From positions 1 through 64,000 of IMG/VR virus record IMGVR_UViG_3300045125_000085: 64,000 nt of DNA; one strand, given 5' to 3'. Under the pieces are notes generated by a model. The model made no database searches. It was not told where the DNA came from and was given only the letters and a program-made list of their open reading frames with translations. The position numbers and the translations under genes are program-made. Every line of letters begins with the position of its first letter. The first letter of the stretch is position 1. Of the stretch, positions 8,373 to 45,173 are shown piece by piece. Source of the stretch: a virus.

Positions 8373-10603
8373 GCATCACCTCCCATAGGGGTCATTTTAC
8401 CTGCAGGTCTATAGACCATACGCCAGCCACCACACATCGCTACATGACGTACTAGACTCAGCGGCTTAGATCCACCGAGCGGTATCTGCTGCCTATCTAT
8501 AGCAACTGGTATATTAGTCGGTCTATCAGCAGTCAAAATATTCCACACTATGTGTCTATGCGTAGTAGGGCTAGTATTCCTATCCATCATCTCAGCTATG
8601 GCTTCCTTACCACAGTAGCTGACGAAGATCCTACCTTCAGACTCACCGATAGTACGTACTGGACTATTACGATGTGGAAACGCGTACTTCTGCGCTCTCG
8701 GTCACGGGTGATAAGATACCGAAGTGCTGTAGTGTACCTGCAAGCTACTGACGATAAAGCGTCCGTGATTTTATCTAGTAGCATCATGTACAAAGGCGCT
8801 ATGCGTACGGGATACTGAGTCACTACTCTCTGACCACTATAACCTACATAGCTGACAGGGCCATAAGTAGGATTGTACTCCTGCTGTAGTCGTCTAGCGA
8901 CATCAGCGATCTCATACTCATGATCCGTAGGGTAGAATATCAGCCCACCATTTTCCACCAGTCTAGCTAGATGGTCTAGCTTATCATCTATAGATAGTCC
9001 ACTATAGTGCTGATATTGCAAAGGCGATACGGTCTGATAAAAGCCTAAGCGATAGCGATAGGCATTCTCTACCCTAGATGCATCAGTCTTATAGATCTCC
9101 TTAATAGCAGCTAAGGCACTCGCGTAAGGCTGCTTCTCTAAGCCTAGCATACTCCTGACTGTCTTAGTCACATCGCGCTCACACGGCACCGAAGAACATC
9201 TCATACAGTCGGCCTAAGTTCATACGACTGAAATGTCGTCTCTGCACCTACGACGATATCCGCTCGATTACCTGCTGCATCTACCGGCATGTTCTCAGGC
9301 TTCTCTATGTAACAAATCACACCTTTACCACCTTGACAACACGTCAGCTTATAGCCGATCGTAGGCTGTACCGTATACTCGATAGTAAACTCGACTCTAT
9401 AGTCGTCGAGCGGTACTTTTCTATACACTAGGTTAAGCCTGCTATTAGTCTTACCGCAAGGTTTACCTAAGACGGCCATGGCTTCTACTAACAGTCTGTG
9501 GAGTTCAGGCTTGAGTACGATCTCAGCTTCACCATACTTCTTCCTACGTTCGCTACGTATATGCTCGTACGCATCCAATAGCTCACGGTAAAAGCGTTTC
9601 AGGGCACGAGTGTATTTATTCATACCGCTCATGACTCCTTCAGGCGTAGGGCTATTCTCAGCCTCATCGTGGTAGATCTTGATATCGACGATTTTGCCTG
9701 ACTTGATCTCTATAGGCTGCCCATTCTTCTCACCCTGCATGACTGTACCTGGCCCTCTGACATAGATGGCGTCGTCGAAAATAAAATCAGGCGACATGCA
9801 GTCTGTGATACTCGTGAGTACCGGTCCTAGATCTTGATCATACCTACGCAGCATCGCTAAGATCCCATCTTCACGGATCAGCTGACCTATCTCTGGGAAA
9901 GGCTGGTAACGATTAGCATGGCCGTAGAGGTTTAAAGGAAAGGTACTTGTACCAAACTCCACGACGCGCTTCTCATACACCTTGAAACGTAAACGTGGCA
10001 ACACATCTTCACTGATCAAGATGCCGTCCTCAGCTACAGCTGGATGGGACATCCCGGCTACGTTCAACTCTATACCGAACTTATAGCCGCCGTACTCACT
10101 GATAGAAGGACTATTAGCAAAGATGGTATCTTTCTCTATATAGTCAGTACCCGCTACTTTACTTAATCCAGGTAAAAGTCGTTTGAACTCAGGCGTCATC
10201 TTGTACTCAAAGCCAAAGTACTGATGAAATGACGCAGTGTCTAGGTATGACTAAGCAGCCTATCTCAGGCATACAGTTGACATTAGGATCTCTTATTACC
10301 TCTTCGTAGATCACTACAGTCTCTGGGTTCTCAGGGATGGCATCTATATCGATACCAGCAGGATAGCGGTCTATCACACGTAGCACTCGCATATCGCATG
10401 GTGCTTTCGTTGAATACGTAATCACCTAACCTGCACTCTACACCTGTCTGAAAGCGTTTCTCAGTACTGCCTTCTATGACAAGATTCTGTGAGATATGCG
10501 AACCATACATCACAGCACGACTAGCACTATTCGTACCAGTCGCAAAATTAGTTGCCTGAATACCTAATAATTCAGGATGTAGCTCACTGGGTTTATTGCT
10601 CAT
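8369..10603 (-). CDS. Multisubunit RNA polymerase beta, C-terminal subunit
   Basis: HPAVAEDGILISEDVLPRLR corresponds to the cellular NFEDSILISERV segment, and CCQGGKGVICYIEKPENMP followed by GNRADIVVG corresponds to the GNKGVIS...DMP...G.PVDIVLNP block that holds the catalytic-region lysine. The C-terminal part has GQRVVTQYPVRIAPLYMMLL, matching the GE...V...YM.KL region, and ends at TGA 8369 overlapping the next start. The N-terminus MSNKPSELHPELLGI follows AAGAGGTAGAT. The 9201-10199 section is an unbroken 332-codon frame; the others are shifted. About 745 residues. With the adjacent beta-prime gene it forms half of the presumed non-virion polymerase that transcribes middle and late genes. 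Confidence 0.85.
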
Positions 10604-23071: not shown

Positions 23072-24966
23072 TTAGTACCGGCTATATCCACTATAGTACC
23101 CACGATTCGTAGTCTGGTAACCGAGGTTATGAGACAAGAAGGATTGTCCTGCACCCATGCCCGGTGCCAGCAGACCCTGACCGACGAAGTCAGCCACACC
23201 ACGCTGCTGATTAAAGTCAGCAGTAGCAGGTGCTTGGATGTTGCAGACCAGACCAGCGTCTACACATCCTCGCACCAAGGCATCCATAAAGTCCTTGCTG
23301 AAGGTCACACGCTGAGCGAAACCCAGTGTAGATCGCATTGTTATGCGTCAGACCATCGATCAAAGCTTTACGATCAGCCAGTCTGATTTCCAGCGGTACA
23401 TCCTTGCGTAAGAATGTATCCGACCAAGCTCTGATGCGAGTAGGATCTTTATCGCCGATGAAGTTAGCGACAGCGAGGTAATCGATAGCCCGGATGTCAC
23501 GCTTCATACCGTTCTTATCCATGTAGTAGCCCAAATGGACCCTATTGAACGGATTGATAAAGACTGGCTTATCCGCCGTGAAGTAACGGCTGAAGTTGCC
23601 ATTGGTCAGATCGTTAGCTGCACGCAGCAGCAGATCCAGCGCATGCTTATTACCGACCGAAGCTTCCTTGAATATGCTGAGATACCAGGTCTGGGATGCG
23701 CATTCCGGTACGTCCATCGAGATCAGCAGTTCCGGTCTATACAGACTAGAGATCAGCTGACCCAACTGTTGCAACTGGAAGCTATCCGACTTAGTGTCGA
23801 TCCGCTGACCGAAGCCAGATTGGTTATTCTCCAGAGTTGGCATCAATATTCAACGCACCGATGTCGTGCAAATCTACACCTTCCGTGTTCGGCGTCATTC
23901 TAAACGCCTGTACCCAGTTATTATCGTCACGAATGGCGATAGATGTAGCCAACCATAACAAAGTCATAGCTGGGGTATAACCGTAGTAGCTGATAATATC
24001 AGTCACTACTAAGTTAGCTACATACCGTTGTGTCGGCATGGCGTACTGCTGCGGTTGATAGAAGTTGTACGCGGTCACTGGTGCAACTGGTGCATACAAC
24101 GTATCGATGAAACCAGACAGTACTGAGATACGTGCTTCCCGCGATCCCATGTTCATCTGGTTAGCTGCTTGCTGCGCCTGATCCTGACGCATCTTTGAGC
24201 TAAATGCTACCAATACGTCTGAACGTATCGGCTCACCGACTACACCAGTCAGATCCTGGCGTGCGAACTGTACGGTGCATGTGAGGTCTGCACCTTTATC
24301 CGCCATACCCAGGTTAAAGTCCTGAAAGCCAGGCTTACGTACTTCAATTTCCATATTAGAAGCGGTAGTGGCATTCAGGGCCAAGTTTTTGACACCGGCT
24401 TTATCCTCAGGGTTAAAGGAAGCTGGTACAACGCAGCCATCGGTCATGATCAATGTACCGACAGGGTATTGTTGCCGGACGCGTTCTTTGACACGCTTAA
24501 GCAGTTCATCATTCATGGCGTCGCCAGTGACGCGCATGATTTCTACCTGATTCCTACCAGGCATGGACTGCCAGATAGGTGCCGGTTTTTCACCAGTCGC
24601 TTCGATGATGAGGGTGTGATAGCCTATACCCAGATCACCGAAAGTCTTACTACGCACACATACTACTAAGCAAGAGTAGTTCAGCGCAGTGTATACTGTG
24701 TTGTCCACAGCCAAGATAGCTATTTCACTATCCTTCATCTGTGGATCTTTGCAAGCCTCTACTAAAGCTTGTTCCAGTTTGTTGAGGTACTCAGACCCCA
24801 TGCCCGGTGCGATCGGTGCACCGAACAATGCAGCACCGTGGAAGCTCCACATCGGCATTTGTTGTCTGGGTGGTTCAGGCTGCTGCGATGCCATCTGTGG
24901 CTGTTGAAAGCCAGTAGGTGCATTGGCGGCAGGGGTAGGGCGGATGTTTTCGTCTTTAATGGCCAT
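23072..24966 (-). CDS. chmA: Chimallin-like phage nucleus shell protein (ChmA/PhuN family)
   Basis: Composite length about 630 residues, the size of known chimallins (phiKZ gp54, 201phi2-1 gp105). Layout: a disordered Pro/Gln N-terminus (QQPEPPRQQMPMWSFHG), a large alpha/beta body, segments VDLHDIGALNIDAN and DKPVFINPFNRVHLGYYMDK typical in style of the family, and a Gly/Tyr-rich tail ending GYYSGYSRY, as expected for the C-terminal segment that locks neighbouring subunits. Two frame breaks lie near 23840 and 23335. It is a one-gene unit with an early-type promoter and strong terminator, as suits the most abundant early protein, and it is followed by polymerase beta-prime as in phiKZ. The call rests on remembered features; structure prediction would settle it. 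Confidence 0.8.
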
Positions 24967-27797: not shown

Positions 27798-29924
27798 TTA
27801 ATAACCCAGCTCCGATAAAGTCCAGCCTTTCTTACAATAAAAGCCTAGACTCTCTAGTACTAAGCGATACCCATTCGTCAACTCCAGCACGACACGCTTC
27901 GTATCCAGTATAGACTTAATCTCTACTGGTAAGCCGTGTGTCTGGATATAGTCTAAAGGTAAGAGAAACATCCCTATCGCTCCTTTATTATGCTTAGCGA
28001 TCCAATCCCGCATACGCTGTGCAAAGTCTTTATCCTCCATAGTCTCTAACCAGCGTTTAATATCCGTCTTGTTCTCTAGCGTAGTAGGTATCTTAATCGA
28101 GGCATAAGGTGGTGCTGCGATAGGTCCGTACTTAGGCTCGAATACGAAGTTCCACAATAAGTAATGCTGGTACGGCGACTGTGTCGGCGGTAGTGTATAG
28201 CCTGCACTATCCTTAATCATCATACTGCGATAGAACTCTTCTTCACCATTGAGTAAAGACTGAGTAATAAAGCGTTCCATATCAGCTATCCGTGTCAACG
28301 TCTTACGGATAGAGATCTTCTGCCCAGAGGCTGCTGCATCGAGTATACCGTACATCATACCGTGTAGATCTTTAATGAGTCTAAGAGGACTAGCGCTACT
28401 GATGAGATGCACACCTTTTTTCTCATACTCAGGTACAGCAAAGACATTACCTTCCTGATAGATAGTCCTAGCTGCGTAATGTTTAGCGACATTTGTCAGT
28501 AGGAAAGCATCCCAGATAAACTCACCTTTGACTGCTAGCGTATGCATGTACTCTTCAGGAGTATTGATATTCGCTGAAAAGATCGCTAAGATATGTGCCA
28601 TAGTCTGCGTCGTCAGATATGCGACGGCTGATCCTACTGCTAAGGCATTCGCATCTATGACTAAATGACCCTGATACCACTCTACCCATTTATCGACAGC
28701 AAAGCATGAGCTATCTGTATCACTCAAAGGTACTACGCGTCTTAGCATGTGTGGGATCTGAGCGATAGATGCTGGGATATTCTCAGTCAGGAATAGAGCT
28801 TCGAGTAAGTCTTTATACTCAGCGACTACGGCATGGATATGCTCAGCTGTACCGACTATAGTAGTGAGTACGCCAGCCTCATGCATCTTATCGTAGTTTT
28901 TACCCATGCCTTTAATGAGGTCAGAGCAGACTTGATGTGCTAGGAGTAAGATGTCTTCGTTGAAATCAGCTATCTTACTCTTAGGATCAGGATCAGTAGA
29001 GACGACTCTAGTGCTTAACTTAAGTAGTAGCTCTTTAACGACCTCTGGGTTAAAGACTCTTAAGTGATAAAAGTCACCTGTATAGACGAATGCAGCTCTC
29101 TGGATAGCAGTGAGTTTACTGACATAATCAGCGATCTGCTGAAAGTACTGAGCGTCTTTCCAGTATAGATCAGTAGAGTACTGGATCACACTCAAAGTAA
29201 ACGCTACACTCGGATAGACTAAGCCATACTTATCCATCACGGCTTGGAGTGCCGGATAGTCGGTATGTGTAGTAGTAGAGATGAGGTTATTCATCACTGT
29301 ATCAGGCGACCAGTAATGACGATTACCGGCTAGCATACGCTCGTTCGTCGCATTACAGAGTGATACTACCGTACGGGTAATGGAAGTGAGTGTGCTATGT
29401 GCAGTAGGGTTATGCAGAATAGTACCTTCAGTACCAAACGCACCAGACAAGGCATTATTGTAAATCTTCTTTTTGCTCTGTACGTTTTCTTGATACGTGT
29501 GTTCAGCGAGATTACCTTCAGCTTTGGCTTGATGGGATTTCTTCTTAGCAGCAGATCGTAGCTTCTTATTCTTCTCTACGAAACTAGTATAGACTGATCT
29601 TTTCTTAGACGGATGTAAGTACGTCGTAAAGCTAGGTGTCAAGATATCGCCTGACTGCACAGTGTGACGGATATACTGGCTGAGTCTAGTCTCTATGACT
29701 TCCGTATCACCATTATCACCACGAGCATAATGACGTACGGTAGGGTCTATGACTTTATCAGGAGGTTGTTGCTTCAGTATTTCTAAGGTACGTGTCTTAC
29801 ATAGCTCGATAGGATCACCTGTCATAGTAGCTAAGTAATGCGCCATCTGCTCTACATACTGAGCGATAGGATCTATCTGACGCTTATAACTACTAGTCGG
29901 TTTAAGAAACGGATTATTAGCCAT
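27798..29924 (-). CDS. Family B DNA polymerase, polymerase domain
   Basis: An intact 708-codon frame. KKKIYNNALSGAFGTEGT is motif B of the fingers and PLSDTDSSCFAVDKW is motif C of the palm with the DTD metal ligands. The N-terminal 150 residues hold GDNGDTEVIE and a Lys-rich stretch (KKLRSAAKKKSHQAKAEG) but no 3'-5' exonuclease motifs, and no DxxSLYPS motif A is obvious. The proofreading domain is therefore either a separate gene or absent; phiKZ-group polymerases are known to be split in this way. Start follows the upstream stop directly (TAAATGGC), so it is coupled to 29925-30460. It should replicate phage DNA inside the nucleus. Confidence 0.9.
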   Translation of the reverse strand: MANNPFLKPTSSYKRQIDPIAQYVEQMAHYLATMTGDPIELCKTRTLEILKQQPPDKVIDPTVRHYARGDNGDTEVIETRLSQYIRHTVQSGDILTPSFTTYLHPSKKRSVYTSFVEKNKKLRSAAKKKSHQAKAEGNLAEHTYQENVQSKKKIYNNALSGAFGTEGTILHNPTAHSTLTSITRTVVSLCNATNERMLAGNRHYWSPDTVMNNLISTTTHTDYPALQAVMDKYGLVYPSVAFTLSVIQYSTDLYWKDAQYFQQIADYVSKLTAIQRAAFVYTGDFYHLRVFNPEVVKELLLKLSTRVVSTDPDPKSKIADFNEDILLLAHQVCSDLIKGMGKNYDKMHEAGVLTTIVGTAEHIHAVVAEYKDLLEALFLTENIPASIAQIPHMLRRVVPLSDTDSSCFAVDKWVEWYQGHLVIDANALAVGSAVAYLTTQTMAHILAIFSANINTPEEYMHTLAVKGEFIWDAFLLTNVAKHYAARTIYQEGNVFAVPEYEKKGVHLISSASPLRLIKDLHGMMYGILDAAASGQKISIRKTLTRIADMERFITQSLLNGEEEFYRSMMIKDSAGYTLPPTQSPYQHYLLWNFVFEPKYGPIAAPPYASIKIPTTLENKTDIKRWLETMEDKDFAQRMRDWIAKHNKGAIGMFLLPLDYIQTHGLPVEIKSILDTKRVVLELTNGYRLVLESLGFYCKKGWTLSELGY

Positions 29925-35426: not shown

Positions 35427-36404
35427 TTACAAGATTAGGCCGTGCTCATTCAGCTCTTCATCGAGCTGGATGCGTTTGGTCACAGCACTGGTGACGTGCT
35501 CATCTATATCCTTGATGACCTTGGTCAAGCGTTCCAGTACGGATGGGAAGTATCCTGCTACTGTCACGATGTGGAGTGGCAGATCGACAGTGATAGCATC
35601 CTTGAGCTTATCATCGATATAACCAGTAGCTCTGTAACCGACTGGGATGCCGATGGATGCATCAGTTTGAGCGTCTGAGATCGACACAGCGGAGACTACG
35701 CTATGACCACGTGCTAACTCTACCGTCTTGGAGTAAAACTCCAGGTGGGTCAGCTGAGGATCTACAGCCGTCACTTTCTGATAGTTCAGGAAGTTAGACA
35801 GATCTGCACTATCCAACTCGTGATTCTGACCACTAAAGATAGCAGCCAGCAGTACGATGATGGTCTGGACCTTCTGGTCTACAGACCCTCTAGGAGTAGA
35901 GCTACTATTTTCATAGTAGACCATATTCACCGGCTTTTCGATCTTACGGGCAGTAGCCTCATAGCCCTTCAACGTCTTCGAGGTATTCTCTACCTCGATA
36001 CGACTATCAGTACTACCGATCGTAATGACGATAGTCTGCACATCCTTCTTCAGCAACTCACCTGCTATGATCGGTCCGATGACTGAGCCTGAGCCACCTG
36101 ATGCTGAATGTACAATTACATTCAAGTCACCAGGCTTATAGCGGTGTAAGATTTCCTTAGAGCGTTCAGCGATCGCACCTGCATTGCTGTCACGCTTCTT
36201 ACCACTACCGTCTCTATCTTCGATGAGGTATACTCGCTCATCGTTGATATCCAAGTTAGCCCGCTTAAAGTTACTAGCGGATGTATCTATAAAGACGGGT
36301 CTAAATGTAGCAAACCCGTCCGACGGTTTATCCGCATGCCGCATGAGCTGGCTGACGATGTTGATGCCTGCACCACCGGCTGCGTAAATATTCATTTGGT
36401 TCAT
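35427..36404 (-). CDS. phuZ: PhuZ-like phage tubulin
   Basis: A tubulin/FtsZ-family GTPase that forms the spindle centring the phage nucleus and carrying capsids. AAGGAGINIVSQLM is the N-terminal nucleotide loop, HSASGGSGSVIGPIIAGEL holds the tubulin signature GGGSGS-type loop (here ASGGSGSVIGP), and the acidic, extended C-terminus ends RIQLDEELNEHGLIL, matching in style the C-terminal knob-tail of PhuZ that binds the next subunit. An intact 325-codon frame, the expected length. Start MNQMNIYAAGG follows AAGAGGTAGTACTA. It shares one promoter (37059) with the lytic transglycosylase upstream. The T7-loop that triggers GTP hydrolysis is not obvious by eye. Confidence 0.9.
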   Translation of the reverse strand: MNQMNIYAAGGAGINIVSQLMRHADKPSDGFATFRPVFIDTSASNFKRANLDINDERVYLIEDRDGSGKKRDSNAGAIAERSKEILHRYKPGDLNVIVHSASGGSGSVIGPIIAGELLKKDVQTIVITIGSTDSRIEVENTSKTLKGYEATARKIEKPVNMVYYENSSSTPRGSVDQKVQTIIVLLAAIFSGQNHELDSADLSNFLNYQKVTAVDPQLTHLEFYSKTVELARGHSVVSAVSISDAQTDASIGIPVGYRATGYIDDKLKDAITVDLPLHIVTVAGYFPSVLERLTKVIKDIDEHVTSAVTKRIQLDEELNEHGLIL

Positions 36405-36421: not shown

Positions 36422-36931
36422 TTAATCATTCAAAGTAAGCGGGCCTGATATAAACTCTTTGTAGCCCGAGATGTGAGATTCGACACGCTGTGCGTAGCGT
36501 GTCAGTTTGCGGCTGCGATAGCCTGTGTAACACTTCAATGTGTCTATACGCCTTACGGCTTTCTTCCTGCACTCAGTCAGCACTGTCGTACCGACCTGCA
36601 CTGCGGTATTGATGTTAAACAGATTACACTGTTTAACTTTACGGCAATGCAATCGTGGCATCACCTGCATTAAACCTAAAGCACCTTGTTTACTACGTGC
36701 ATTCGGTTTAAAGCTAGATTCCTCCTGCATGATACCTACGAGTAAGCTGACAGGAAGATGTTGTTCCTGGGCTTGCTCATGGATCACGTGAGCGATACGG
36801 CGTGCCTGAACGACAGACGCCTTCGAGTGTTGCATGATCCATCGCTCTGTCTTGACTGGACTAGCTGATGTAGTGCTAGCAAATAAAGTCATCGCGATGG
36901 CTAGTAGACCTTTCTTTGAGAAGATCGGCAT
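36422..36931 (-). CDS. Secreted lytic transglycosylase (SLT-type), candidate endolysin
   Basis: Cuts peptidoglycan glycan strands. ATG 36931 (MPIFSKKGLLAIAMTLFAST) starts a Lys-Lys, hydrophobic, Ser-Ala-Ser-Pro signal peptide, with TGGAGGAAAAGT upstream. The catalytic domain shows VGIMQEESSFKPNARSKQ then GALGLMQVMP, the SLT motif with the catalytic glutamate in EESS, as in phiKZ gp144. A later NINTAVQVGTTVL and CYTGYRSRKLTRYAQRV complete the fold. About 169 residues, single domain, no cell-wall-binding part. Unusual context: it shares a promoter and operon with PhuZ, 17 bases upstream of it. It could be a lysis enzyme or one used for an earlier step. Confidence 0.85.
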   Translation of the reverse strand: MPIFSKKGLLAIAMTLFASTTSASPVKTERWIMQHSKASVVQARRIAHVIHEQAQEQHLPVSLLVGIMQEESSFKPNARSKQGALGLMQVMPRLHCRKVKQCNLFNINTAVQVGTTVLTECRKKAVRRIDTLKCYTGYRSRKLTRYAQRVESHISGYKEFISGPLTLND

Positions 36932-37058
36932 ACTTTTCCTCCATAGGTAATTGAACACATTTAAGCTGCACAGGCAGCTTATAGGATTTTCAATCCTAGT
37001 AATAGGATCTTTGATCCTCAAAGAGCACTAGTGGCGTACGGGTCGGCTAAGCTCATGT

Positions 37059-41293: not shown

Positions 41294-41674
41294 TCAAACC
41301 ACATGTCTATTTCTGTTACTGGTGTCAGCTACTTCATTATCTTCACCGAGATCTTCTATCTGGCAAGCTAAGATCCAGAAGCTCGTCAGATCCTCAGGTA
41401 GTCTAGGATCGTTAGGTACAGCATAACTGTAGAGATTATTGCTAGTCATCCCTACTGTGAACTGAAAGTCATCAGCGACCTCTATGCAGTCGTGGCTGTC
41501 GATGAGCTTGACGAGCACATCAGGACGAGCCTTGATGTGAGCTTTATGGACGCGCTTAATAGCATCCTCACTGTTACAGATCATCGCCTTTTTGCTTTGG
41601 TTTTGCTTGATGTGATAATCAGCATTAACATTGAAGCTAAGACCCAGAATGATAAAAGCGAATAAAGTGCGCAT
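41294..41674 (-). CDS. Small secreted protein with signal peptide, 126 residues
   Basis: MRTLFAFIILGLSFNVNADY has a basic start, a hydrophobic core and an Asn-Ala-Asp cleavage region, so the product is likely exported to the periplasm. ATG 41674 follows TTAGGAGAAACACAT. The mature part (about 107 residues) carries CNSEDAIKRVHKAHIKARPD and DSHDCIEVADDFQFTVG, with three Cys available for disulphides. No domain recognised. A superinfection or envelope function is possible. It ends close to the hairpin at 41247-41284. Confidence 0.65.
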   Translation of the reverse strand: MRTLFAFIILGLSFNVNADYHIKQNQSKKAMICNSEDAIKRVHKAHIKARPDVLVKLIDSHDCIEVADDFQFTVGMTSNNLYSYAVPNDPRLPEDLTSFWILACQIEDLGEDNEVADTSNRNRHVV

Positions 41675-41779: not shown

Positions 41780-41804
41780 AAAGAGCACCGGTGAGGGTGC
41801 TCTT
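41780..41804 (-). terminator. Terminator of the AcrIII-1 gene
   Basis: AAGAGCACC/GGTGCTCTT around GGTGAG, followed on the minus strand by TTTTTTCTC. Confidence 0.75.
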
Positions 41805-41847
41805 TGAAGGGAGCTTCATGCTCCAGCGAAGGTAACGCTATGAAAAA

Positions 41848-42195
41848 CTATTTACTGGTTGTTACCAGGATGAAGCGGAACTCTGCGCCTTCCGGCAGTA
41901 CTGTGGTGCCCTCAGGAAGACGTGGCCCATTGTACTGGGCCACCAGGAGGATATCGTCATGTTCCAGCTTGATGTTGACCCGATTGCTCGGGATATTTGC
42001 ACCAAGCAGATTGCTCAAGATGACCGCAGTGTCGGGATGACCGACACCGCTAACGAAGCGACCATCTGCGATCTCTGCACCAACGATGCTAGCTGCATCG
42101 CTAGCATCGATGTCGCGGTACGACAGTGTACCGCCATCAAAGCTAGCAGAGATCATGGAGAAGGAAAATGCGTTGGCGATGTAGAACTTGCTCAT
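41848..42195 (-). CDS. acrIII-1: AcrIII-1 family anti-CRISPR ring nuclease (DUF1874)
   Basis: AcrIII-1 enzymes rapidly degrade cyclic tetra-adenylate, the second messenger of type III CRISPR defence. The 115-residue chain starts MSKFYIANAFSFSMI, matching the YLANAFSINML start of the SIRV1 protein, then SGVGHPDTAVILSNLLG with His53 at the place of catalytic His47, then NRVNIKLEHDDILLV and PRLPEG with Arg92 and Glu95 at the places of Arg85 and Glu88 (the SIRV1 residues are recalled). The length fits the family. ATG 42195 has TTGGAGGTAACT upstream; the longer frame from 42207 is less likely. The frame is intact. It is a one-gene unit with an early-type promoter and a leader hairpin. STIV B116/YddF-type relatives share the fold, so activity needs a test. 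Confidence 0.88.
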   Translation of the reverse strand: MSKFYIANAFSFSMISASFDGGTLSYRDIDASDAASIVGAEIADGRFVSGVGHPDTAVILSNLLGANIPSNRVNIKLEHDDILLVAQYNGPRLPEGTTVLPEGAEFRFILVTTSK

Positions 42196-42265
42196 AGTTA
42201 CCTCCAAAGGGTAAAAGCTAAGCTATGTAGATAGAGCATATCCACATAGCTGGAAAGGGTGTAGT

Positions 42266-42344: not shown

Positions 42345-42370
42345 TATCGGGCAGAATGATCTGCCCGATA
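42345..42370 (-). terminator. Hairpin after gene 42375-42641
   Basis: TATCGGGCAG/CTGCCCGATA around ATGATC-type loop, four bases after the stop, inside a GGCATA context. Confidence 0.65.
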
Positions 42371-42374
42371 GTAG

Positions 42375-42641
42375 TTAATCACCTGAGTTTTCTTCATCCT
42401 GCTTTTTCAGCTCTGCATCTGTCAGTCGCTTATAGGCAGGTAGAGGTGCTCTGTACAGGAGCGCTATTGCGGTCAAGGTAACCGCCGTGGTAGGAGTAAG
42501 GTCGACCATGCTGTACGTCATGACCCAAAAGTTATGCCCAGGTACATCTCTACCATTGACAGTCTGGATCGCATAAGCATATTCGCTTATTAGCAGCCAG
42601 TACTCTGAAGGTACCTTTATTGCTAGTCTGTCCACAGACAC
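42375..42641 (-). CDS. Unknown small protein, about 88 residues
   Basis: Opens at GTG 42641 (VSVDRLAIKVPSEYWLLISE) or the GTG two codons later, which has AGGTG upstream. It continues YAIQTVNGRDVPGHNFWVMT, a hydrophobic segment TTAVTLTAIALLYRAPLP and a charged end LKKQDEENSGD. The hydrophobic segment could span a membrane. It lies in the same frame as the 42651-42833 ORF, with TGA TAG between, so both could be one gene if the stops are errors. Confidence 0.45.
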   Translation of the reverse strand: MSVDRLAIKVPSEYWLLISEYAYAIQTVNGRDVPGHNFWVMTYSMVDLTPTTAVTLTAIALLYRAPLPAYKRLTDAELKKQDEENSGD

Positions 42642-42650
42642 CTGAATCTA

Positions 42651-42833
42651 TCAGTCGTTTAATACGCTAGTACATCTACCTTTTAGCATAGTAGACGAGT
42701 TGTGATACTGATTGCTCAGTACTACAGACTGTGGTGGTTTTTGTTTCCGTATCGTTACGGCGTCTGAAGCCATAATCAGCATCAGCAGTAGAGTCAATGT
42801 GTGACGAGTAGAAAAGAGTATCATTGCGCGCAT
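42651..42833 (-). CDS. Small protein with N-terminal hydrophobic segment, 60 residues
   Basis: MRAMILFSTRHTLTLLLMLI begins a likely signal peptide or membrane anchor (LLLMLIMASDAV), with AGAGGTACTCTT upstream. The rest, KQKPPQSVVLSNQYHNSS and CTSVLND, is short and polar. With the next ORF it could form one envelope protein. Not recognised. It lies just before the terminase on the opposite strand. Confidence 0.45.
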   Translation of the reverse strand: MRAMILFSTRHTLTLLLMLIMASDAVTIRKQKPPQSVVLSNQYHNSSTMLKGRCTSVLND

Positions 42834-42949
42834 AAGAGTACCTCTAAAAGTAAAATGAGTAAAACGAAAGCTATCTTACCATTACTTCACTTTGTGAAAA
42901 AATATAGAAGACATGCTATAGCCGATTACTAAATCACAGAGAGACTGTT

Positions 42950-45173
42950 ATGACGATACTGTTTTTAAACGACTGGAAAAACTACCCAAACGCTATCGTA
43001 GATACTGAGACGAAGAACTCTAGCTTTATACGGTATAGTGCACTACCCGCGAGATGGGCGTCAAGAACCATGCTTTTCCTTTGCAGCTACATAACCCTAG
43101 CTTACAAGGTATAGATCCATTTAGCCTACAGTTGACGATACAGCAGATGGCTGATATAGCCATAGAGTGTAAACGTAACTTCTTCTACTACGCTAGAGAG
43201 ATCATTCGAGTACCACCACCTTCAGGACCAGGCGTGACGTACCTAGCTGCTAATCGTGGTAATATCGCTTTATTCTGGTTGTTCTTAAACCATGTGACGA
43301 CTATACTCATACAGCCACGACAGACTGGGTAAGTCTGTATCTACAGATGCGCTACAAGTCTATCTACTGAACCTACGCTGTCAAAACACTACGATCAATT
43401 TGCTGACTAAAGATGATGATCTACGTAGCCGTAACTTTGACGCGTATTAAGGATATCTCTAGTGAGCTACCATGGTATCTACAGCTACGCTCTAAGAAAG
43501 ATATCGCTAATACGGAAGAGATCACTATTAAGACTTTGAATAACCGCTATAAAGGACACTCTACCGCATCAGTCACCTAAACAAGCCTTAAACGTAGTGT
43601 AGAGGTCTGACGAGTCCTGTCTTCCACATAGACGAGTTTGCTTTTCTGTACAATATCGAAATCATGCTACCTGCTGCATTAGCAGGTGGTGGTGCTGCTA
43701 GAGACGTAGCAGCTGAGCGAGGTGAGCCGTATGGTACTATCTATACGACGACTGCAGGTAAGAAGAACGATAGAGATGGTAAGTATGCGTATCAGATCAC
43801 TACCTGCTCAGCTGTCTGGAGTGAGAGATTCTTAGACGTAGCGGATCCTACTGACTTTAGAGCATGTGAATACGAAGATCAGCACCTAAAGGCGAGTATC
43901 GTGTCAACTGTACTTTCAGTCATAGACAACTAGGCTATAGTGATCATTGGCTCAAACGTAAGCTAGAAGATACTAATGCTACTGGTGATGATGCTAATCG
44001 TGACTTCTTCAACGTATGGACGTCAGGTACGCAGTCTATGCCCTTACCGACTTACCTCATGGAGCGTATCCATCAGTCACGTCAGTTAGATAATCATGCT
44101 GAGATCACTAGACCATACGGCTACATTACGCGCTGGTATATACCTGAAGCTACTATTAAAACGACTATGCAGGAATACAGTACGCTGATGGGGCTAGATA
44201 CTAGTGACGCCGTAGGTAGAGATGACATAGGTATGGTCATAAGGCATGTAGTCACCGGTGAGATACTCGCTGCTGGTAATTACAATGAGACTAACCTCAT
44301 CACCTTTGCTGAATGGATAGCACTGATGTTAGAGCAGTATCCGAAGATGACATTGATCATAGAGCGTAGATCATCCGGTGCAGCTATCTTAGACTACGTG
44401 ATACTCATGCTAGTCAATAAAGGCATAGATCCATTTAAACGTATCTACAATAAAGCCGTACAGGATGCCGATGAAGTACCGGAACGCTTTAAAGAACTCC
44501 AGCGTCCGTTTCATATACGTCATCAGGAAGTATATGTCAAGTATCGTAAGCTGTTTGGCTTCGCTACCTCAGGTACAGGGACTACGAGTCGTACTGAGCT
44601 CTATACGACGACATTACTAGCAGCTGCTAAGAATACAGGCGATAGAGTCAAAGATCCAGTGCTAGTCGATCAGAATACTAGGACTCACTACCAAGAACGG
44701 TAGGATAGACCATGCCGATGGTGAGCATGACGATGTCTGTATCGCATGGCTGTTGACGTACTGGTTATTGAGCAATGGCAAGCACATGGACTTCTATGGC
44801 ATCAATAGCCGTGAGATCTTAAGAGAGATCAAGCAACAAGATCCTGATCAGAAACCAGAGTATGTCTATCAGCGTAGATTACAACTACAGATACGTCAGC
44901 GTATAGAACAACTCACTGAGCAGATCAAGAATGAGCATGATGAGTATGTGGTGCATAAGCTAGAACGTGAACTAATGGGCTTAGGACATACAGATCGTAC
45001 TGGATGACGGTGAGACCTTTAGTATCGATACTCTGCTGAATGAGCTAAGGCTTACAGAAACAATCTAAGAGTCAGCAGCAGCGCAGCATGGCGTTAGGTA
45101 GACAGAACCCATATGGCGGTGGCACTGGATACTTCATAAGCAGCCTATGCAGCAAGGCAATCGTTACTGGTAA
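42950..45173 (+). CDS. terL: Terminase large subunit, frameshifted
   Basis: The packaging ATPase and nuclease. Joined in order: MTILFLNDWKNYPNAIVDTE, then MGVKNHAFPLQLHNPSLQ, the Walker A TTILIQPRQTGKSVSTDAL (needs one G removed from GGG at 43327-43330), FHIDEFAFLYNIE as Walker B, YTTTAGKK as coupling motif, then the nuclease part with LDTSDAVGRDDIGMVI and TLIIERRSSGAAILDYV, and the C-terminal GQRIEQ-type helix ahead of QPMQQGNRYW at TAA 45171-45173. At least six breaks. About 740 residues. It matches phiKZ gp25 in being upstream of the sheath/tube block. Start 42950 has only a weak site (GAGAG). Confidence 0.85.

Follow-up and report, generated by a model that had tools for sequence, protein, structure and literature searches.

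The product of a gene at positions 41848-42195 is, on the combined evidence of its sequence and its modelled structure, very probably a cyclic tetra-adenylate (cA4) ring nuclease of the AcrIII-1 family, and thus an anti-type III CRISPR protein; the gene is carried by a phage whose assignment to the phiKZ-like, nucleus-forming group is well supported. The window, i.e. the whole stretch of DNA that was analysed, consists of bases 1-64000 of a 144,006-base IMG/VR virus record. The open reading frame lies on the minus strand, starts with an ATG at 42195 and encodes 115 amino acids followed by a stop; the 115-residue frame of the initial annotation is thus confirmed. The gene and the elements around it are as follows.

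41848..42195, minus strand: DUF1874/AcrIII-1 family gene, with predicted catalytic residues His53, Arg92 and Glu95; Arg72, Ser11 and Asn8 are conserved too
42201..42205, minus strand: ribosome-binding site GGAGG, 5 bases 5' of the ATG at 42195 (read from the sequence)
41780..41805, minus strand: intrinsic-terminator-like hairpin of 10 pairs with a T run, directly 3' of the DUF1874 gene
42221..42251, minus strand: 13-pair inverted repeat in the DUF1874 leader, just 5' of the ribosome-binding site
42346..42369, minus strand: G+C-rich hairpin ATCGGGCAG/CTGCCCGAT 3' of the upstream gene, setting off the DUF1874 unit (read from the sequence)

The DUF1874 frame is unbroken and has a ribosome-binding site and terminator, whereas the adjacent genes are frameshifted. 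The hairpin at 42346-42369 is without a T run and was not scored as a terminator; possible roles for the inverted repeat at 42221-42251 are translational control of DUF1874 or service as a processing site. We could not assign the gene an early promoter of the phiKZ type, which is a point against the preferred reading: the window holds 64 TATATTAC-like sites where 96 would be expected by chance. A CATATTAC site 98 bases 5' of the ATG was considered and dropped because of this under-representation, and no promoter is claimed.

The 115-residue product matches PF08960 (DUF1874) with E=9.2e-12 and 45.4 bits against a curated cut-off of 26 bits, so that the HMM search proposed with the initial annotation gave a clear family assignment. 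It also matches PHROG 5063 (E=8.4e-19), and a phmmer search recovered four solved DUF1874 proteins, SIRV1 gp29 among them, the matches to AFV3-109, STIV B116 and SIRV1 ORF114/6scf having E-values from 1.7e-10 to 9.5e-7. In an alignment of 12 sequences, made up of the protein and eleven relatives from viruses, SIRV1 gp29 among them, N8, G52, H53, N71, R72 and R92 were invariant. Within the closer subfamily (n=58), S11, G52, H53, R72 and R92 are present in 58/58 sequences and E95 in 56/58. It had been claimed earlier that His53, Arg92 and Glu95 occupy the positions of His47, Arg85 and Glu88 of SIRV1 AcrIII-1; the three residues do align with H47, R85 and E88 of SIRV1 gp29 and are near-invariant among the 58 relatives. 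Arg85 and Glu88 of gp29 we take to be active-site residues beside His47.

An AlphaFold2 model built from the 58 sequences has a pLDDT of 95.9 and a pTM of 0.88. In the model H53 comes right after strand 47-51, and R92 and E95 lie in the loop after strand 82-89. The proposed comparison of the predicted structure with the fold of SIRV1 gp29 was equally favourable: the top Foldseek match in the PDB was 6scf, an AcrIII-1 anti-CRISPR (E=4e-10), followed by STIV B116, SIRV1 ORF114, AFV3-109 and the Csx1-Crn2 fusion of Marinitoga, the latter also as a complex with cA4. Low E-values came from DUF1874 structures only, and the TM scores of the model to 6scf, 2j85, 2x4i and 2j6b were 0.69-0.84.

SIRV1 gp29, the type AcrIII-1 protein (PDB 2x4i, 6scf), thus resembles the window protein in its PF08960 domain, its fold and its length (114 against 115 amino acids), and the two have in common the catalytic His/Arg/Glu, Ser11 and an NR motif. 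They are, however, only 32% identical, the window protein has an LPEGA hairpin segment where gp29 has a C-terminal helix, and gp29 comes from an archaeal rod-shaped virus rather than a nucleus-forming bacteriophage. The closest match in a deposited phage is the DUF1874 protein of Thermoanaerobacterium phage THSA-485A (AFK87686), which is 45% identical over 96% and has the RLPEG...LP C-terminus, but this is a 41.9-kb phage of a thermophilic Firmicute and is not nucleus-forming.

Further evidence on function comes from L194:2200-3921 (CALBXO010000409.1, uncultured proteobacterium), which encodes a protein of 573 amino acids with an N-terminal DUF1874 domain of the same subfamily. The remainder matches the Csm6 HEPN domain PF09670 with E=5e-16, and TIGR02710 with a score under the cut-off of that model. 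Because DUF1874 is here fused to a Csm6-type HEPN effector, the protein supports a role for the subfamily in cyclic-oligoadenylate signalling. It carries Pro at the Glu95 position. Its domain order is the reverse of that in the Marinitoga Csx1-Crn2 fusion (8y7f, 8y7g), called so far unique in 2020, in which Crn2 stands at the C-terminus and acts as a fast ring nuclease on cA4 (PMC7293037). Crn2 shares the DUF1874 fold and active-site His with the window protein; unlike the latter it is cellular, lies within a type III locus and regulates host immunity rather than blocking it.

The protein could instead be a sponge that binds cA4 with slow cleavage or none. Nuclear phages do have sponge proteins, Tad1 being an example (PMC13282480), and a homologue from another nuclear phage, G013, is without Glu95 and Asn8, so that full enzyme activity may be missing in some copies; the window copy, however, retains His53, Arg92, Glu95, Ser11, Asn8 and Arg72, and it is His47 that makes SIRV1 gp29 active, the H47A mutant being inactive though it still binds cA4 (PMC7213978). 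We therefore consider a sponge unlikely. Alternatively, the domain might degrade or bind some other nucleotide signal, for example from CBASS, which uses cyclic oligonucleotides too, and be anti-CBASS rather than anti-CRISPR; no measurement of substrate range was found for the bacterial-phage subfamily with its GPRLPEG...LPEGA C-terminus. Against this, the characterised proteins of the same fold are cA4-specific (PMC7854544, PMC12409355) and in one subfamily member, L194, the domain is joined to an effector of type III systems, which makes another substrate quite improbable. A DNA-binding or regulatory role, suggested by public records in which the homologues of betalipothrixviruses and ARV1 are labelled 'DNA binding protein', is very doubtful, as the proteins so labelled have the AcrIII-1 fold and the strongest conservation falls on the ring-nuclease active site and not on a basic surface. 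A cA4 ring nuclease thus remains the preferred reading.

The features which bear on the phage and on the site of the DUF1874 gene are listed here.

23217..24966, minus strand: chimallin, the protein of the nuclear shell; a frameshift divides the gene into two ORFs covering profile positions 105-417 and 418-600
27798..29924, minus strand: phiKZ-type family B DNA polymerase (phrog_2927, 6e-213)
35427..36404, minus strand: PhuZ tubulin (phrog_4733, 9e-86; phmmer to PhiKZ039, 1e-24)
41294..41674, minus strand: 126-aa small protein with a signal-like N-terminus, one flank of the insertion; orthologue of L025:2386-2778 (42% identity, 1e-19)
42375..42833, minus strand: probable second, frameshifted copy of the small-protein gene, the other flank (weak match: 26 aa, 7e-4)
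42926..45050, plus strand: large terminase gene, with several frameshifts in this record

Because PhuZ, chimallin and a phiKZ-type polymerase are all encoded in the window, the source phage can be placed with good support among the Chimalliviridae. The chimallin assignment is based on phrog_4795 (1e-38) and on a phmmer match to chimallin 7sqt (E=5e-12). The DNA polymerase is 41% identical to that of Burkholderia phage FLC9 and 33-37% identical to those of other nuclear phages (PhiPA3 and relatives), and a beta subunit of a multisubunit RNA polymerase is also found (6e-86). The initial annotation had called the source a nucleus-forming jumbo phage; the first part of this description is upheld by PhuZ and chimallin, whereas the jumbo size (>200 kb) would follow from relatives of 200-320 kb, the record itself being a fragment of 144,006 bases. 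As genes for the terminase, PhuZ, chimallin and the DNA polymerase lie nearby, the DUF1874 gene is virus-encoded and outside a host CRISPR locus. A lytic-transglycosylase-like secreted protein (window 36422-37021; motif reading only) adjoins PhuZ and is kept in L025. A tandem repeat with a 177-base unit (x7.2, 98% matches) was seen at G000 69530-70811 (L007:5530-6811). The frameshifts in the record could be sequencing errors or genuine damage, probably the former; the terminase (42926-45050) and chimallin (23217-24966) genes broken here are intact in relatives.

L025 is a close relative (PhuZ 89%, DNA polymerase 66%) and is colinear with the window on either side of the DUF1874 gene. At the syntenic site of L025 the terminase adjoins one small-protein gene without DUF1874 between them; in the window DUF1874 lies between the terminase and the small-protein gene, probably between two small-protein copies. 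The 126-aa small protein at 41294-41674 had no Pfam match. Since DUF1874 is absent at the L025 site and has a G+C content of 53% against 46% for the window, it looks like a gained accessory gene with its own ribosome-binding site and terminator. That a DUF1874 gene of another element was joined to a jumbo-phage contig during assembly is scarcely credible, for although the many frameshifts point to imperfect record quality and the gene exceeds its surroundings in G+C, the colinear backbone is common with L025 on both sides and the subfamily is independently present on six other phiKZ-like contigs.

Deposited phiKZ-like phages were negative for DUF1874: tblastn against 50,697 phage records gave 56 with DUF1874, among which no phiKZ-like phage could be recognised by name, the domain was absent among the best 40 of 291 deposited records matching the window polymerase, and none of six whole phiKZ-like genomes gave a match in an HMM search. 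Therefore nuclear phages do not generally need such a gene, which also counts against the preferred reading. Structural matches were also found to three uncharacterised proteins of the cultured phiKZ-like Erwinia phages Kwan and phiEaH2 (BFVD A0A1B2IEC3, A0A1B2IEJ3, J7KCD4), with a DUF1874-like predicted fold (TM ~0.6) and 11-17% identity. Of 13 Kwan genes, picked mainly by length, only gp256 and gp263 had a weak profile hint with hhalign (L203:5126-5527 and 9871-10281, assigned by length and these weak matches only); both are without the catalytic His and the RLPEG segment, and the structural matches in the Erwinia phages were not counted.

In IMG/VR, PF08960 was sought in 79 records with a phiKZ polymerase (80 kept out of 220, minus L025); G007 and G050 scored above the cut-off and G013 below it. 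A scan with the window protein alone gave no relatives, its patterns being too specific; the subfamily alignment, used in its place, retrieved 64 viral loci and brought in G096 as a further carrier. Chimallin and a phiKZ-type polymerase are encoded by each of these four phages, which carry the same DUF1874 subfamily. Two further fragments, G098 and G101, carry the subfamily and phiKZ-type terminases, and no chimallin was found on them. The phiKZ-like contig G098 (120 kb) has two DUF1874 paralogues, L146:4400-4726 and L158:9989-10324. In the copy of the chimallin-positive G013 (L166:9986-10324) Asn8 is changed to Ser and Glu95 to Val, and this copy is possibly a weak enzyme or cA4 sponge. From motif reading, the neighbours differ between phages: SbcC-like, spike and DHFR genes in G096 as against RNA polymerase-like and glycosyltransferase-like genes in G013. 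DUF1874 of G007 adjoins a macro-domain-like protein with the motif VFGSNLAGRHGKGAA (L106:825-1286; motif reading only), and a NUDIX-like protein is near that of G050 (L107:295-777; motif reading only); these two neighbourhoods are possible counter-defence clusters.

The tree of the subfamily prefers about four label changes and sets the window copy apart from the other nuclear-phage copies; a single nuclear-phage clade is not rejected (p-AU 0.08, and 0.22 without the window copy). Independent acquisition by nuclear phages is therefore the favoured reading over a single origin. The broader proposal, that nucleus-forming phages have gained AcrIII-1 ring nucleases repeatedly and independently as part of a two-layer shield, with the nucleus against DNA-targeting systems and messenger degradation against type III, appears to us about evenly balanced between true and false. 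If it is true, several lineages would be suited to hosts in the wild whose type III systems signal with cA4, and laboratory hosts would lack such systems.

In the proposed mechanism the chimallin nucleus would enclose the phage DNA during infection while its mRNA passes out into the cytoplasm; there a type III CRISPR complex of the host would recognise the mRNA and make cA4. The 115-aa protein, as a dimer, would bind cA4, which His53 would cut with help from Arg92 and Glu95 to leave inactive linear di-adenylates; with cA4 removed, the CARF-domain effectors (Csx1/Csm6) would stay off. We infer that the protein dimerises and cleaves cA4, that it is expressed early, and that the host has a type III system signalling with cA4. 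The earlier premise that the enzyme completes the protection, since mRNA is exposed to type III systems, agrees with reports that these, unlike DNA-targeting CRISPR, reach nuclear phages whose transcripts leave the nucleus, and that Serratia type III stops the nuclear phage PCH45 via NucC (PMC13282480, PMC7854544); it requires a host which signals with cA4. In the literature found, no type III defence against a nuclear phage other than the Serratia/NucC system has been characterised, and this one is not cA4-based, which counts against the preferred reading. NucC responds to cA3, and therefore a cA4-specific enzyme would not block a Serratia-type defence. The enzyme instead predicts hosts with Csx1/Csm6-type effectors driven by cA4.

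Of 28,114 phage genomes, 36 are reported to carry AcrIII-1 (PMC12409355), and according to a 2026 review no anti-defence protein other than Tad1 has been described in jumbo phages (PMC13282480). Tad1 of phiKZ likewise serves a nucleus-forming phage by acting against signalling, through removal of a nucleotide second messenger (PMC13282480), but it belongs to a different family and is a sponge against CBASS and Thoeris rather than an enzyme against type III CRISPR. No report of AcrIII-1 or a ring nuclease in a jumbo or nucleus-forming phage was met in the literature searched, which covered few subscription papers, so priority is not certain. The DUF1874/AcrIII-1 family is already known; the nucleus-forming phage setting and the recurrence appear to be new. 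Since mRNA has to be exported, type III CRISPR is the recognised gap in the protection that the phage nucleus gives. The DUF1874 copies of chimallin-positive phages are concrete genes for testing, and the occurrence of a putative ring nuclease in at least five such phages suggests that they close the type III gap in nature.
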